64,000 nucleotides of DNA from NCBI RefSeq assembly GCF_017745095.1, contig NZ_JAGHZZ010000003.1, forward strand, positions 1 through 64,000. Direction: 5' to 3'. A program made the translations under genes and the position numbers. Every line of letters begins with the position of its first letter. Within the stretch, counting starts at the first letter, position 1. The DNA is from Sporocytophaga sp. Its GTDB lineage: Bacteria > Bacteroidota > Bacteroidia > Cytophagales > Cytophagaceae. The notes below the pieces were generated by a model. That model saw only the letters and a program-made list of their open reading frames with translations, had not been told where the DNA came from and did not search any database. Shown in pieces: positions 16,002 through 48,888 of the stretch.

Positions 16002-17909
16002 CTACTCTGAAATATAATTAAGACGGACGATTTTACTTCTGTGTTCATTTTCCATTTTAAGTATATAAATGCCGGTTGGAATTTCTGATGCCTTTGCATT
16101 TAAGGTAAAAGTTTTTTTCCCAGGCGTGGAAGATCTTGCAATGACAATATTCTTCACAACTGTTCCGTCAAGATTGAACAACTCTATTCTGGTTGGGTCG
16201 GGACCATTATAAGAGACTGTTATTTCCTCATTAAAAGGATTAGGAAAGACTTTAACCTCTTCTTCAAAAGTAGGGGCGTGTACATCAGTAATTAATTCTA
16301 TAGTTGCCTCCACTTGTATTTTAAAGGTATCTGCTATACACTGAAATTGGTCAGACACTACAACTACCTGGTCTTCTTCAGGGTAGAAACTGACATTTTG
16401 TTCCTTACTGCTATCATGAGACCAGACATAATCACCTTTCCAGGATGCGCTTAAAGAAACAGAATCACCGAGGCTGACTTTAATATTATTGATTCTTCCA
16501 GCGTCTTTTATAATTGTAAACCTGTCCCTGATCGCACCATCTGCATTAAGCCATTGAGCATCTAGCCGAGATCCTTCTATTTCCAAGATTAAAGATCCTC
16601 CGTTGGTTATATCATTAAATGCTTCCATTGCATTATGAGGATAAGCTACATGTGGATTTCCACCAACACACCCTGATGCTCCAGAAACAACATAAACAGT
16701 TCCATCAACTTTATGGAGAGAGTCCTTCAGATAGGTACATGAATTTGGCGAGCCATCATACCTTCCGCTTGAATGGCTCAGGTTATGAACATCCGGATCA
16801 AAAGTCGATTCCGCACCATAATGACCTTTGATAAGTTTGCTGCGTTCATAAGAATGGCTATGACCGCAAATAATGAGATCCACACCATATCGTTCAAGTA
16901 TCCTAATAAAGTTACTTCTGATCAAAGCCAGTTCTGTTTCGGTATCAGAATTGTGATGTCCCATGGTGTATGGAGCATGATGCCAAAAAGCAACAATCCA
17001 TTTACTCTTATTAGCTTCAAGGTCCCTTTTCACCCATTCTACCTGAGCACCTAAGGTATCATACAGTCTGGTGGCATTGTCCTCTTTACCATAGGAATCA
17101 AGAGAAAGAAAATGGATATTTCCATAATCAAAAGAGTAAAAAGCTTCTGTCCCGGAAGGTACTCCACCAGCTTCACCATTTGAAGGTGTATCAAATATAT
17201 CATAGTAAGCAATTTTATGATCCGCTTGCCGCTCACTGTTCATGGCATAATCATGATTTCCAGGAGCCGGATATAAAGGTATATTTTTCAGTGCATCTCT
17301 TTCATATATTGAAAAAAAACCAGTTTTGTATTCATCATCAGAACCACTCCAATAAGCATTGTCTCCAAGCAAAAGCATTCCATTGGTAAGATTACTTCCT
17401 CTATATCTAAAAAACTGATCCCTGACCTTTATTTGATTTATTGAATTATTACCACAATCTCCTATCACCCAAAAGGAATACTTCCCTTGAGAATCTTTAA
17501 CAGGAGGTGTCAGAAAATAATTCTGATCATTTCCTTGTAAAATACTATCTCCAAACCCAATTGAATAATAGTATTTTGTATAAGGCTTAAGATCAGAAAG
17601 TAACACTGTATGTTCTGTAGTTTCAAAAAGATCAATAGTGCTTTGGGTCAAATCAGTGGGAGACAGTCCATACTTAACAATACTATTAACTTTATTATTA
17701 GTTCTCCAGCGAAGTATCATGGAAGTTGGAGTAGGCTTTTGAAGGTAAGGTCCCCTTACCAAAGATGTTTTATCCTCATTAGCAATATCTATCTCATTTT
17801 TATTCCTTTCAGTGACATTAGCATACCCAGCAATATTGACGGCACTAAACAGAACTATCAGCATCAAATTAAAAAAAGCAACAGTACTCCGCTTCTTCCT
17901 GAAGTTCAT
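16002..17909 (-). CDS. Second T9SS-exported purple-acid-phosphatase-like metallophosphoesterase (paralogue)
   Basis: A close paralogue of the downstream gene, sharing nearly every catalytic block: RGPYLQKPTPTSMILRWRT, VIGDCGNNS, LLLGDNAYWSGSDDE, PAPGNHDYAM, WHHAPYTMGHHNSD and ICGHSHSYERSKL. It lacks the two N-terminal beta modules and most Ig-like segments, giving 635 residues. The start is set at 17909 (MNFRKKRSTVAFFN), which yields a proper signal peptide; the frame stays open to 18053, but those 48 residues read as non-coding. The C-terminus (VFPNPFNEEITVSYN to SKIVRLNYISE) is a T9SS type A signal. The pair looks like a tandem duplication separated by about 230 bases. Confidence 0.88.
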   Translation of the reverse strand: MNFRKKRSTVAFFNLMLIVLFSAVNIAGYANVTERNKNEIDIANEDKTSLVRGPYLQKPTPTSMILRWRTNNKVNSIVKYGLSPTDLTQSTIDLFETTEHTVLLSDLKPYTKYYYSIGFGDSILQGNDQNYFLTPPVKDSQGKYSFWVIGDCGNNSINQIKVRDQFFRYRGSNLTNGMLLLGDNAYWSGSDDEYKTGFFSIYERDALKNIPLYPAPGNHDYAMNSERQADHKIAYYDIFDTPSNGEAGGVPSGTEAFYSFDYGNIHFLSLDSYGKEDNATRLYDTLGAQVEWVKRDLEANKSKWIVAFWHHAPYTMGHHNSDTETELALIRSNFIRILERYGVDLIICGHSHSYERSKLIKGHYGAESTFDPDVHNLSHSSGRYDGSPNSCTYLKDSLHKVDGTVYVVSGASGCVGGNPHVAYPHNAMEAFNDITNGGSLILEIEGSRLDAQWLNADGAIRDRFTIIKDAGRINNIKVSLGDSVSLSASWKGDYVWSHDSSKEQNVSFYPEEDQVVVVSDQFQCIADTFKIQVEATIELITDVHAPTFEEEVKVFPNPFNEEITVSYNGPDPTRIELFNLDGTVVKNIVIARSSTPGKKTFTLNAKASEIPTGIYILKMENEHRSKIVRLNYISE

Positions 17910-45071: not shown

Positions 45072-46406
45072 ATGAAATCATTTGGACTCAAAAATTTACT
45101 GGTATTGACTGTGTTAGGAATGATGGGAGCTTGCACCAGTAATCAGTTCACGTCATCTTCTCCTGAAAATGATGACCTTTATTTTTCTTCTAAGGATAAA
45201 AGGAAAGTACAACCTGTTGCTACCAATAACCAAACTTACTCAGGAAATGATATGCCTCAGAATTACAATTCTGACAATAATCAAAACTATTCAAATAATA
45301 ATAATCAATCTTCCACCAACGAATACAGTTATTCTTCAAGTGATAAACCTGTAGACTATTCGAGATATACTTATAAAAGTAACACCTCTTCTTCTACAAG
45401 TTCTGGAGGTGATACCTATATCACGAATAATAATTATTACGACAATGACGATTATATCTACAATAGTAATTCCTCTAGGAGATATAATTGGGGAATGGGT
45501 TATACAACAGGCTGGAACCCATATGCCTCCTTTGGACCTACTTCAAGAATTACTGTTAGTTTCGGCTACAATACAGGTTGGGGGTGGAATAGCTATTATG
45601 GCTACAATTCCTTTTATCCTGGATATGGTTTTGGATATGGAAGTCCATATTATTCTTGCATGAGCTGGGGCTCCCCTTATTACTATTATGATTATTATTC
45701 GCCTTGGTATAGTTATAATAGCTGGTACTCTCCATACTGGGCTACTACTTGGGGAGGATATCCTTATTGGGGAGGATATGGTGGATACTATGGCTATCCA
45801 TATAGCAGCTTTGACAGAGGATATAGCTATGGATACATGCAGGGATATAACAATGCAAATGTAAAATCCAGACCTGTTAATAATGGTCCAAGACAAGACA
45901 GAACGGCAGGAAGAGTTAATACTCCTCAAAACAGTAATGACCCAAGAACACAGAGGTATTCCAACGGAAATACTCAGGATTCTTATAACAATGGTCAGGG
46001 TAGAGTAATCAAAGAAGACGCAAATGGTAGAAAACAAATCTATTATCCGGGAAATAATTCCGGCAGCAATAGCCAACAATCTACATCATCTACGCCTACT
46101 ACGACTCCTGACAACCGTTCGACCTATCAATCTAACGATCAATATTCTTCACCTTCAAATAATTCCGGAAACTCAGGAGGTGGAAACAATAGCAATAGAA
46201 GACAAATTTATAATAATCAGAGGAGCTCTTCCTATGATAATAACAATAGCAACAATAGTTATAATAACCATAATTATAACAATAGCAATAACTACAATAA
46301 TCATAACAACTACAGTTCGCCCTCTCCAAGAGGTGGTGGCGGTGGTGGTGGCGGAGGTTCTGCTCCATCCCATAACAGCTCTCCTGCTGGCAGAAGAAGG
46401 TTTTAG
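45072..46406 (+). CDS. Low-complexity Gly/Tyr/Asn/Ser-rich lipoprotein
   Basis: A 444-residue secreted lipoprotein with a lipobox (LGMMGAC, Cys21). The rest is of biased composition: residues about 30-110 are Asn/Ser-rich, 140-265 Gly/Tyr/Trp-rich (GWGWNSYYGYNSFYPGYGFG) and 300-444 Asn/Ser-rich again with an RGGGGGGGGG run near the end. No globular domain is recognised. It ends nine bases before the OMPP1/FadL-type gene, so the two are likely co-transcribed. A surface coat, adhesive or T9SS-linked role is possible; the sequence does not decide. Confidence 0.8.
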   Translation: MKSFGLKNLLVLTVLGMMGACTSNQFTSSSPENDDLYFSSKDKRKVQPVATNNQTYSGNDMPQNYNSDNNQNYSNNNNQSSTNEYSYSSSDKPVDYSRYTYKSNTSSSTSSGGDTYITNNNYYDNDDYIYNSNSSRRYNWGMGYTTGWNPYASFGPTSRITVSFGYNTGWGWNSYYGYNSFYPGYGFGYGSPYYSCMSWGSPYYYYDYYSPWYSYNSWYSPYWATTWGGYPYWGGYGGYYGYPYSSFDRGYSYGYMQGYNNANVKSRPVNNGPRQDRTAGRVNTPQNSNDPRTQRYSNGNTQDSYNNGQGRVIKEDANGRKQIYYPGNNSGSNSQQSTSSTPTTTPDNRSTYQSNDQYSSPSNNSGNSGGGNNSNRRQIYNNQRSSSYDNNNSNNSYNNHNYNNSNNYNNHNNYSSPSPRGGGGGGGGGSAPSHNSSPAGRRRF

Positions 46407-46415
46407 TACAATACT

Positions 46416-47969
46416 ATGAAAATATCAAAATACATTTTTACAACAGGCTTTTTAAGCCTGTTTTCTATTTCTGCTTTTTCTCAAGGTCCATTTGGTTACT
46501 ACAATGATGCCGTGAGATTTTCTCAAACCACATTTGGGGGTACTGCACGCTTCCAGGGTATTGCAGGAGCTACAACAGCTCTTGGTGCCGATATGGGAAC
46601 ACTTAATAGTAACCCTGCAGGTCTGGGATTTTATAGAAAGTCTGATGTTAGCATTACGCCCGGTCTAAATTTCGCAGGAACCCGAACCAATATGCTTGGT
46701 ACAGAGACTAGAGACAATAAAGTTAGCTTTAATATCGCCAATATCGGAATTGTCTTTTCTGGCGCAAAAGATGATATAGTGCCGGGGAAATACAGAGGAG
46801 GTTCATTTGGTATCAGCATGACTAGAACCAATAACTTTCAAAACCAATTTAGCTATAGTGGTTTTAATAAATCAAACACATTCGGCCAATATGTAGCTGA
46901 ATCAGCAAGAGGCTATACTTATGACGAAGTTGCCAACCAAGACCTTAATGCTCTTACTGATATCGTAGGTCTAGCCTACAATGCCTACCTTATTGACCCA
47001 ATATATTGTGGTGAAGATGCAAATGGACCAATCCAATGTCCTGGAAATCCATGGCACTCATTGATGAGTGATAACATCGTAAAGCAAAAGGAAATAGTTG
47101 CTACCAAAGGAAACCAAAGTCAATGGGACATTGCATACGGTGGAAATATTGATGATAAAATTTATCTCGGCGCCTCGCTTGGAATTGCTACTATCAAATA
47201 TGAGTCTAGTAAAGTATTTACAGAAACCAATACCCAGACTAGTGATACTATTGATAGCTATTCTTTATATGATAATTTAACATTAAGGGGTACCGGTATT
47301 AACTTTAAAGTAGGAGCAATTATTAAACCTGCTGATTGGATAAGAATAGGACTTACCGGTCAGACTCCAACATATTATTCAATCAGGACTACTTATGAGT
47401 ACAAAATCAAGATGAATCTAAATTCAGATTTTGTAAACGCATTTGGTATTGATGACTCATTCCAATCCTTCTCTACGCTCCCTGGGACATATAATTATAA
47501 TCTGACAACACCTGCAAGAGCAAAAGCAGGAATTGCCTTATTTGCAGGGAAAGCTGGATTTATTTCCGGAGATGTCGAAGTTGTAGGCTATAGTGGAGCG
47601 AGATTAAAAGGGGCCGATCCTCAGGAATTGGACGCAGATAATGATGTTATAAAAAATCTTTATAAGACTACATATAATTTTAACCTTGGAGCAGAAGCCA
47701 GACTTGGTGACTATAGGTTAAGAGCCGGATATGCAAGATTAGGCGATCCATATAGACATGGGATTGTCGATGATCTCGATAGGACCATTAATACCTTTAC
47801 CTTCGGTGCTGGTTTGAAATCTGAAGGCTTTTATGCTGATGTTGCTTTTGTAAATACATTCTACAAAAGTAATTACTACTCTTATCACTTAAACAGCGGC
47901 AAAGAACCAATGGCAATTGTCAATAACAGAAATACAAGCTTTGTAATTACAATAGGCACAAGCTTTTAA
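46416..47969 (+). CDS. OmpP1/FadL/TodX-family outer membrane protein
   Basis: A 517-residue beta-barrel protein. A signal peptide (1-22, ending SAFS) is followed by the family hallmark ALGADMGTLNSNPAGLGFY (residues 55-73), then strands of alternating hydrophobic pattern to the final VITIGTSF. FadL relatives transport hydrophobic compounds across the outer membrane; Bacteroidota members are often misnamed hemin receptor. The close gene behind the low-complexity lipoprotein suggests they work at the same surface. Transported substrate unknown. Confidence 0.85.
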   Translation: MKISKYIFTTGFLSLFSISAFSQGPFGYYNDAVRFSQTTFGGTARFQGIAGATTALGADMGTLNSNPAGLGFYRKSDVSITPGLNFAGTRTNMLGTETRDNKVSFNIANIGIVFSGAKDDIVPGKYRGGSFGISMTRTNNFQNQFSYSGFNKSNTFGQYVAESARGYTYDEVANQDLNALTDIVGLAYNAYLIDPIYCGEDANGPIQCPGNPWHSLMSDNIVKQKEIVATKGNQSQWDIAYGGNIDDKIYLGASLGIATIKYESSKVFTETNTQTSDTIDSYSLYDNLTLRGTGINFKVGAIIKPADWIRIGLTGQTPTYYSIRTTYEYKIKMNLNSDFVNAFGIDDSFQSFSTLPGTYNYNLTTPARAKAGIALFAGKAGFISGDVEVVGYSGARLKGADPQELDADNDVIKNLYKTTYNFNLGAEARLGDYRLRAGYARLGDPYRHGIVDDLDRTINTFTFGAGLKSEGFYADVAFVNTFYKSNYYSYHLNSGKEPMAIVNNRNTSFVITIGTSF

Positions 47970-47994: not shown

Positions 47995-48888
47995 ATGAAG
48001 AGCAAATGGCTTAAAACAATCATTTTATTAGCAATTTTATCTTCATCTTTCTTTTTCTCTTTTGCCCAACCCAAAGTAGGACAAAAAGCGCCAGATTTTG
48101 AAATTGAAGATCCTAACGGGAAAACAATTCATCTGTCAGATCTTACTGGCAAAGTCGTATTGCTTGATTTTTGGGCTTCCTGGTGCATGCCATGCCGCGA
48201 AGCCAATCCAGAAGTAGTTGCTATCTATCAGAAATACCACGATAAAGGATTTGAAATTTTCAGCGTTTCGTTGGATACCAAAAGAGAAGCCTGGCTTAAT
48301 GCTATAAAAAAAGATCAACTCTCATGGCCCAACCATGGGAGTGATTTAAAGGGTTGGGAAAATGCAGTAGCTGAACTCTACGAAGTGTCAGGAATTCCCG
48401 CTACTTTTTTAATAGACGAAAAAGGATTTATCATCGGAACTGATCTTGACGAATACGATCTTGACAAAAAACTGAATTTCCTGTTTAACGAGCAAGTTCA
48501 GTTTTATCCTCAAACCGCTGCTGGCAAACTTTTTTTCACTACAAAAGCCAAGTATCAGATAGAAGACTTAAAAGGGAATATTTTACTGAAAGGTAAAAGT
48601 GAAGAAGTTGACATTACTGGATTAGCAGCTTCGGAATACGTTGTCAGATATGAAGATAAAACATCGCACTTCCTCAAAAAAGTGAGCGATCAGTCCCTTG
48701 TTACTTTTTATCCGCAACGAGTAGATGACAAACTTACTTTATCTAAAAACGCTAATTTCGAAATATATAATCAAAGAGGCAAACTGATCAAGAAAGGGGC
48801 AGGCGCATTTATTATGGTACAGGATCTTGCATCCGGCAATTACTACCTCAGTCTGGAAGGCACAGTTAGTACTTTTTTCAAAAAATAA
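47995..48888 (+). CDS. TlpA/ResA-like thioredoxin with two C-terminal T9SS-like repeats
   Basis: A 297-residue exported thiol-disulfide protein. A signal peptide (1-24, ending FAQ) precedes an AhpC-TSA/Redoxin domain at about 26-165 with the redox pair Cys64/Cys67 (WASWCMPCREAN) and the cis-Pro in SGIPATFLID. Two aligned 62-residue repeats follow: 168-229 (VQFYPQTAAGKLFF to SHFLKK) and 236-297 (VTFYPQRVDDKLTL to STFFKK). They have the order FYP-x-K-L, I/Y-G, GxY and a final KK, like T9SS type A sorting domains but with YPQ in place of YPN. The 3' end overlaps aroK by 11 bases on the opposite strand. Confidence 0.86.
   Translation: MKSKWLKTIILLAILSSSFFFSFAQPKVGQKAPDFEIEDPNGKTIHLSDLTGKVVLLDFWASWCMPCREANPEVVAIYQKYHDKGFEIFSVSLDTKREAWLNAIKKDQLSWPNHGSDLKGWENAVAELYEVSGIPATFLIDEKGFIIGTDLDEYDLDKKLNFLFNEQVQFYPQTAAGKLFFTTKAKYQIEDLKGNILLKGKSEEVDITGLAASEYVVRYEDKTSHFLKKVSDQSLVTFYPQRVDDKLTLSKNANFEIYNQRGKLIKKGAGAFIMVQDLASGNYYLSLEGTVSTFFKK

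Follow-up and report, generated by a model that had tools for sequence, protein, structure and literature searches.

A TlpA-like thioredoxin of Sporocytophaga sp. that ends in two tandem repeats related to T9SS sorting domains

The window analyzed here, a stretch of 64,000 nucleotides, comes from a Sporocytophaga sp., a member of a genus noted for gliding and for degrading cellulose. An open reading frame at 47995–48888 (+) encodes a protein of 297 aa that combines a thioredoxin domain with two repeats resembling the C-terminal domains (CTDs) of type IX secretion system (T9SS) substrates. Residues 1–24 (48066 being the last nucleotide; 47995–48066, +) were recognized by eye as a Sec-type signal peptide, with a basic N-terminus, a hydrophobic stretch, SFAQ ahead of the mature part, and no lipobox Cys; the AlphaFold model places a low-confidence helix (3–19) in this region. 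A TlpA/ResA-like thioredoxin domain follows (residues 25–165; 48067–48489, +), then the first CTD-like repeat, copy 1 (residues 168–229; 48496–48681, +), a linker between the copies (residues 230–235; 48682–48699, +), and the second repeat, copy 2 (residues 236–297; 48700–48885, +), with which the protein ends in FFKK.

Positioned 25 bp upstream of the thioredoxin gene is a gene for a putative outer-membrane barrel, a remote relative of FadL and possible operon partner (46416–47969, +). This gene gave no Pfam or NCBIfam match at E up to 1, PorP/SprF included; a profile search returned 3dwo, a probable outer membrane protein that is presumably a FadL homologue (E 2.5e-5), and TbuX (3bry, E 0.0042). 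Located 9 bp before the barrel gene is a Tyr/Gly/Asn-rich putative lipoprotein (45072–46406, +), with a GAC lipobox seen by eye and no Pfam or NCBIfam family match. The region 45072–47969 may hold a lipoprotein and barrel operon whose barrel is unrecognized by Pfam and NCBIfam, and similar low-complexity ORFs precede the barrel in five other loci (L031, L032, L033, L167, and L173).

A TlpA-like thioredoxin had been proposed for this gene in a first-pass annotation, and that assignment agrees with Pfam, Foldseek, and the invariant CxxC and Pro residues. The thioredoxin part matched AhpC-TSA (79.3 bits), Redoxin (73.3 bits), and Thioredoxin_8 (71.5 bits), and its closest solved folds were Bacteroides thiol-disulfide oxidoreductases and ResA (Foldseek matches 4grf, 3fkf_C, and ResA 1st9_A, with TM 0.88–0.91 by target length). 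The active site is W63-C64-M-P-C67 (CMPC), and Pro-135 occupies what we take to be the cis-Pro position of the thioredoxin fold; Cys-64, Cys-67, and Pro-135 were invariant in 19/19 rows of the full-length alignment (A1). Scores fell below the NCBIfam cut-offs for ResA (99.2 bits, cut-off 170) and TlpA (79.1 bits, cut-off 230), so we assign the domain to the superfamily without naming an orthologue. Four further thioredoxin matches occur in the same genome at E 1e-15, and neither of the two that were placed coincides with the TIGR04183 matches listed.

The two 62-residue repeats described earlier at 168–229 and 236–297 were recovered by direct alignment, by profiles, and in the predicted structure. 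Copies 1 and 2 aligned without a gap over 62 residues (20/62 identical, 31/62 positive, E 6e-11), and comparison of a copy 1 profile (19 sequences) with a copy 2 profile (18 sequences) gave a probability of 99.2% (E 1.1e-19). AlphaFold modelled the whole protein (19 sequences) with a mean pLDDT of 90.9 and the tandem alone (17 sequences) with a pLDDT of 94.8 and a pTM of 0.84. In the tandem model, each of the four long strands of the first repeat returns 68 residues later in the second (13–25/81–93, 31–41/99–109, 48–54/116–122, and 57–63/125–131).

The suggestion that both repeats look like sorting domains was supported by PF18962, TIGR04183, and profile comparison. Against PF18962 (cut-off 27), the whole protein scored 35.8 bits, copy 2 alone missed the cut-off narrowly (25.4 bits), and copy 1 alone reached 15.6 bits. 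TIGR04183 (cut-off 23) gave 31.7 bits for the whole protein and 25.0 bits for copy 2 alone, in a match spanning model positions 14–61 of 72, short of the C-terminal motif; it did not match copy 1 alone. Among the rows of A1, PF18962 matched 19/19 and TIGR04183 18/19 (E up to 10). An hhalign comparison with 20 type A CTDs, drawn from the best-scoring CTDs of the same genome, returned 96.9% (E 1.7e-10) for copy 1 and 97.4% (E 1.5e-11) for copy 2. The comparison with type A models proposed at the outset places copy 2 above the TIGR04183 cut-off and copy 1 as a relative at the profile level; the type B model proposed alongside it, TIGR04131, found no match, being absent from the NCBIfam lists for the tandem and for each copy (E up to 10), and a type B assignment was set aside. 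Failure of both repeats to score together with differing structures, the contrary case named in the first-pass annotation, was not observed.

Copy 2 terminates at residue 297 of 297, and no C-terminal extension occurs in any of the 18 rows of A1 that carry both copies; 17 of these rows end KK directly after the CTD fold. Copy 1 is internal in 18/19 rows and C-terminal only in the single-copy gene of genome G020. Both repeats are related to the T9SS type A CTD, in the case of copy 1 by profile comparison only. Copy 2 is a divergent relative that passes one curated model without the YPNP opening, and copy 1, below the cut-offs and not C-terminal, is best left unclassed as a CTD.

Among solved structures, the tandem model came closest to 8glk_D, the NucA CTD in the Flavobacterium johnsoniae T9SS translocon, which matched copy 2 (Z 9.6, 63/75 residues, rmsd 1.6 Å). 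It was followed at ranks 2–4 by an endoglucanase (Z 8.2, the best unrelated fold), the RgpB CTD (Z 7.3), and the PorU CTD (Z 7.2); with the endoglucanase at 8.2, the NucA match of this predicted structure is not far above background. Searched as a profile against solved structures, copy 2 found the C-terminal part of 7pzj, a lipase, first (E 9.4e-9) and 6fwv, a collagen adhesin with Ig-like repeats, second (E 1.5e-6); copy 1 found 6fwv first (E 1.1e-6) and 7pzj at E 9.3e-6. Foldseek with the tandem ranked CD22 and complement C4 ahead of the RgpB C-terminal region (5ag8, third, E 3.2e-4), and superposition of the whole tandem on 5ag8 gave an rmsd of 11.8 Å. With this third rank and this rmsd, no likeness to the two-domain arrangement of RgpB is established.

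To compare the repeats with known CTDs, motif positions were taken from passages of PMC11969387 (section 3.5) and PMC10994853. The motif B Gly is present in 19/19 copy 1 rows, which include the single-copy gene of G020, and in 18/18 copy 2 rows. The motif D Gly is kept in 16/19 copy 1 rows, the losses being the window's protein and its two nearest relatives, and the motif D GxY of copy 2 is kept in 18/18. The C-terminal Lys occurs in 18/19 copy 1 rows (Arg in the remaining row) and in 18/18 copy 2 rows, as Lys-296 in the protein studied. In the passages of PMC10994853 on type A CTDs, a Lys near the C-terminus is described as the one nearly invariant, functionally important residue and as touching PorV; Lys-296 would be its equivalent.

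YPQ in place of YPN had been singled out in both copies. YPQ is indeed present in both, and its reading as a meaningful change did not hold, since the position is variable. The residue after YP is Q, N, F, E, H, T, I, V, K, or L in copy 1 and Q, E, L, T, V, A, S, M, or N in copy 2; Asn follows YP in 1/19 copy 1 rows (L004), and FYP opens copy 2 in 17/18 rows, with Asn next in 0/17. With the third residue free among relatives, YPQ is uninformative, and we rejected it as a signature. The second Pro of YPNP is absent from both copies. This is a real departure from the models, because 19/20 of the sampled own-genome CTDs, a set taken from the best scorers, open YPNP or FPNP. YPNP is the consensus of the models and of these CTDs, and the passages available of the motif papers do not report it as needed for export.

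A search for other tandem copies had also been proposed, and it covered the order, a phylum sample, and the window's own genome. The tandem profile (A4) matched 70 of 390 genomes of the order at E 1e-14, and 22 of these were matched over copy 1 and copy 2 alike, namely G029, G079, G104, and G130 together with 18 of the 19 members of the window's family. One of the 18, G003, belongs to the same genus as the window, and its frame is broken within copy 1; this orthologue (L031:3001-3892) reflects either a real change or an assembly error. In a phylum sample of 395 genomes, the 394 besides the window's own gave no A1 match at E 1e-60, a strict threshold that could miss distant cases in samples that contain genomes of the window's order. 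Three A4 matches in that sample (E 1e-10), two proteases with YPNP and one protein like F2 (a short-CTD family described below), were rejected as tandems, each having a single C-terminal CTD. Within the same genome, 1 of 43 A4 matches covers the whole profile, and the one weak partial match across the junction that was checked (G000:C1, 31–122) is a single CTD. TIGR04183 yielded 396 candidates there, of which 150 were scored, all over the cut-off; no same-strand pairs within 1 kb were seen by eye among these 150, a set that does not contain the studied gene itself. The alignments omit the frame-broken gene of G003 (from A1), L019 with an altered copy 2 (from A4), and L020 with one copy (from A4 and A3). 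L004, L007, L014, and L018 have no clear ATG and were trimmed by hand at the N-terminus, which leaves the domains unaffected. At L169:2012-3533 (G029), two TlpA-like genes are adjacent; the tandem CTDs are present in the second and absent from the first.

The history of the repeats was examined with a tree of 73 domains over 68 columns, built by a quick search and including the 20 own-genome CTDs as generic representatives from the best scorers. All 22 copy 1 rows grouped together with one F2 row (SH-aLRT 95), and 17/21 copy 2 rows formed a clade (SH-aLRT 97). The other four copy 2 rows fell outside it; L019, L153, and L161 were flagged as long branches, and L019 and L153, both altered in copy 2, lay on the generic CTD side. 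This grouping by position dates the duplication to before the origin of the family, with both copies retained since then. We considered that the protein might instead be an ordinary T9SS thioredoxin of the type of HBP35, in which the preceding domain resembles a CTD because both are Ig-like, with no duplication involved. In its favor, most entries in the fold-search lists are Ig-like, and for the copy 1 profile the Ig-like adhesin 6fwv comes ahead of 7pzj. Set against it, copy 1 matches copy 2 (E 1e-19) far better than either copy matches the own-genome CTDs (E 1.7e-10 and 1.5e-11), and the tree splits copy 1, 19/21 copy 2 rows, and F2 from the 20 own-genome CTDs with an SH-aLRT of 99, which leaves an origin without duplication highly improbable.

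The first-pass annotation had further asked whether one copy is a functional signal and the other degenerate. The better model match of copy 2 fits the first half of this idea, and decay of one copy, the second half, was rejected on similar column identity and low dN/dS in both, though the motif D Gly is missing from copy 1 in the window and its two nearest relatives. Averaged over columns, identity amounts to 58% in copy 1 and 59% in copy 2. Comparison of the window's gene with those two relatives gave dN/dS values of 0.057 and 0.070 for the thioredoxin part, with 0.014 and 0.061 in copy 1 and 0.041 and 0.076 in copy 2. Over nine pairs, in some of which dS was saturated, finite ratios were obtained in 7/9 for copy 1 (0.014–0.140), 6/9 for copy 2 (0.018–0.076), and 6/9 for the thioredoxin part (0.012–0.150), and copy 1 changed faster than copy 2 in 5/9. 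Both copies are under purifying selection.

Several relatives lack part or all of the tail. The G015 gene at this locus (L173:2118-2606:+), behind the same barrel gene, stops directly after the thioredoxin part and encodes 162 aa with no CTD, although G015 has SprA. The frame of G020 ends after its one copy, copy 1; copy 2 lacks FYP in G012 and the terminal Lys in G104. These variants indicate that the enzyme can persist without the tail. They would suit a periplasmic oxidoreductase whose two domains descend from T9SS signals and now serve as Ig-like adaptor or dimerization domains, as would the absence of YPNP from both copies and the usual location of TlpA-like proteins, which are generally periplasmic or membrane-bound. 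On the other hand, 17 of the 18 two-copy rows end KK after the CTD fold with no extension, as a signal would, copy 2 passes TIGR04183, and its motif B, motif D, and C-terminal positions are invariant in 18 rows, so that we find a purely periplasmic role distinctly unlikely.

The genome encodes the T9SS, with the following components over cut-off: SprA (2525.9 bits), PorV (497.3 bits), and PorU-type sortases (1342.7 and 1303.1 bits). The two sortases are full-length and lie approximately 2 kb apart (G000:C5:101675-105037 and 107376-110732), the second directly before porV. SprA is present in 357/380 genomes of the order, which makes a co-occurrence test with the T9SS uninformative. The window itself holds a further TIGR04183 sorting domain at 16026–16250 (-), in a frame of 683 aa. 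The PorU-type dipeptide [TEDN][GAS] is absent from the window's own linker. Within the 10 residues before the CTD, it occurred in 7/18 copy 2 rows, 2/19 copy 1 rows, 9/20 own-genome CTDs, and 6/9 F2 proteins (L132 excluded from the count), so the groups are poorly separated.

Taken with the genome's T9SS, these observations are best explained, with moderate probability in our judgement, by copy 2 acting as the export signal and copy 1 being a duplicated signal that is now an Ig-like domain before copy 2. The protein is predicted to be a secreted or surface-attached thiol-disulfide oxidoreductase. Its signal peptide suggests that it would enter the periplasm by Sec and fold there; SprA and PorV may then recognize copy 2 and carry the folded protein across the outer membrane, copy 2 probably serving as the export tag. 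Copy 1 would have originated long ago, when the same short CTD was duplicated, and would persist as a permanent Ig-like domain joining thioredoxin to signal, probably as a fixed spacer. It could also offer copy 2 a folded neighbor for docking, comparable to the preceding domain in RgpB, where, in the passages of PMC11285876, a point mutation that breaks the contact of the CTD with that domain stops secretion. In the whole-protein model, copy 1 starts almost directly after the last thioredoxin helix (153–166), and the linker is less certain (mean pLDDT 84 for residues 231–240, vs. 93–96 in the flanking blocks). Given this arrangement, a sortase cut would probably leave copy 1 on the enzyme: any cut by PorU would fall in the linker and place thioredoxin and copy 1 outside. 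Without a cut, copy 2 would stay on a barrel, as in PorU and PorZ.

In favor of this reading, we counted the place of copy 2 at the exact C-terminus, its TIGR04183 pass, the kept CTD positions, the NucA-like fold, the profile match to 7pzj, and the T9SS of the genome, as well as the selection on copy 1, its position after the helix, the confident tandem model, and the RgpB contact mutation. Counted against it were the missing YPNP, the copy 2 score under the PF18962 cut-off, its TIGR04183 match ending short of the C-terminal motif, the linker without the dipeptide, the relatives with an altered or missing tail, a fold match not far above background, 6fwv ranking above 7pzj for copy 1 and second for copy 2, and the rmsd of 11.8 Å to 5ag8.

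The neighboring barrel gene raises the alternative of a surface anchor, in which the protein crosses the outer membrane uncut and the tandem is clamped to PorV, as PorU is, or to the upstream barrel, with the thioredoxin working at the surface. The barrel gene, 25 bp upstream in the window, lies on the same strand and no more than approximately 260 bp upstream in 14/24 genomes, including G015 without CTDs; in G029 it is upstream with one other thioredoxin gene between. A window linker without the reported dipeptide also fits an uncut protein, and CTDs that remain uncut on barrels are known from passages of PMC10202324, namely PorU on PorV and PorZ on PorQ. Substrates of type B, according to passages of PMC12618676, are often encoded beside their carrier barrel. 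Conversely, the repeats gave no match to the type B model, and hhalign aligned the barrel with PorV only weakly (65.7% over 65 columns near the N-terminus). The barrel is on another contig in four of the 24 genomes (G006, G009, G011, and G020) and had no match at E 1e-15 in five, all two-copy (G010, G014, G017, G079, and G130). The link between barrel and thioredoxin is common and not needed, and obligate pairing as a general rule was rejected on the five genomes without a match. An anchor has some chance of being correct and is, on balance, unlikely. A mixed arrangement, in which copy 2 exports the protein and copy 1, as a second and lasting domain of the signal type, tethers the thioredoxin after export to a dedicated barrel from the same operon, seems to us quite improbable; if true, the protein would be a cargo akin to type A whose CTD is duplicated and which has a carrier to itself, resembling the type B/SprF pairs and separately evolved.

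Returning to copy 2 as an export signal, the notion that a redox enzyme exported by the T9SS would be without precedent is contradicted by HBP35 of Porphyromonas gingivalis, for which passages of PMC2907840 and PMC3120885 describe a thioredoxin motif, insulin-reducing activity in vitro, and a T9SS-dependent surface location via its CTD. Compared by description, both proteins have an N-terminal thioredoxin motif and a C-terminal T9SS CTD; HBP35 is described in those passages with one CTD, whereas the protein here pairs a TlpA/ResA-type thioredoxin with two CTD-like domains. Copy 2 resembles the type A CTD (TIGR04183, PF18962) in score, C-terminal place, motif B Gly, GxY, Lys, and NucA-like fold, and the repeats differ from it in being approximately 60 residues long, opening with FYPx for YPNP, and being doubled, with copy 1 internal and under the cut-offs. 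Type B CTDs with a PorP/SprF barrel share the placement of a barrel gene beside the CTD gene, but TIGR04131 has no match here and the barrel matches no NCBIfam model. PorA of P. gingivalis, as described in PMC7712824, signals to PorXY-SigP, and its CTD reportedly interacts with PorV; it is likewise a small CTD protein and differs in having no thioredoxin.

A thioredoxin exported by the T9SS is thus already known, and two CTDs in tandem were not found described in the open-access literature, where a search for tandem or duplicated CTDs returned no description. Passages of the Cytophaga and Sporocytophaga proteomics papers name no protein like this one; the thiol-disulfide isomerase CHU_0134 that they list is larger (55.2 kDa) and given without a CTD. 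In the literature cited here, the CTD features as one signal at the terminus, and the preceding domain matters in RgpB, where loss of its contact with the CTD stops secretion (PMC11285876). Here, a signal copy is seemingly used as a front domain, and relatives with two, one, and no copies form a series for probing what the translocon needs. At the Bacteroidota cell surface, the protein could represent a second type of thiol-disulfide enzyme.

F2 is an unnamed short-CTD family of the same order with proteins of approximately 260–290 aa (alignment A6), represented in the window's genome at L131:1596-2378:- (G000:C61). Its compact C-terminal domain, with an FYPx opening and a KK end, is closely related to the tandem domains; in contrast to the thioredoxin studied here, F2 proteins have one CTD-like domain, no thioredoxin, and two invariant Cys in an uncharacterized N-terminal part. 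The family matched only Por_Secre_tail models, just under cut-offs, and its profile searched against the PDB found only 7pzj, via its CTD, and no PorA chain. A paralogue in the same genome (L132:804-1586:-, G000:C44) has a C-terminal domain without FYP and without the FFKK end. G015 had no F2 match at E 1e-5, though SprA is present, and its losses of the CTDs and of F2 are possibly linked.
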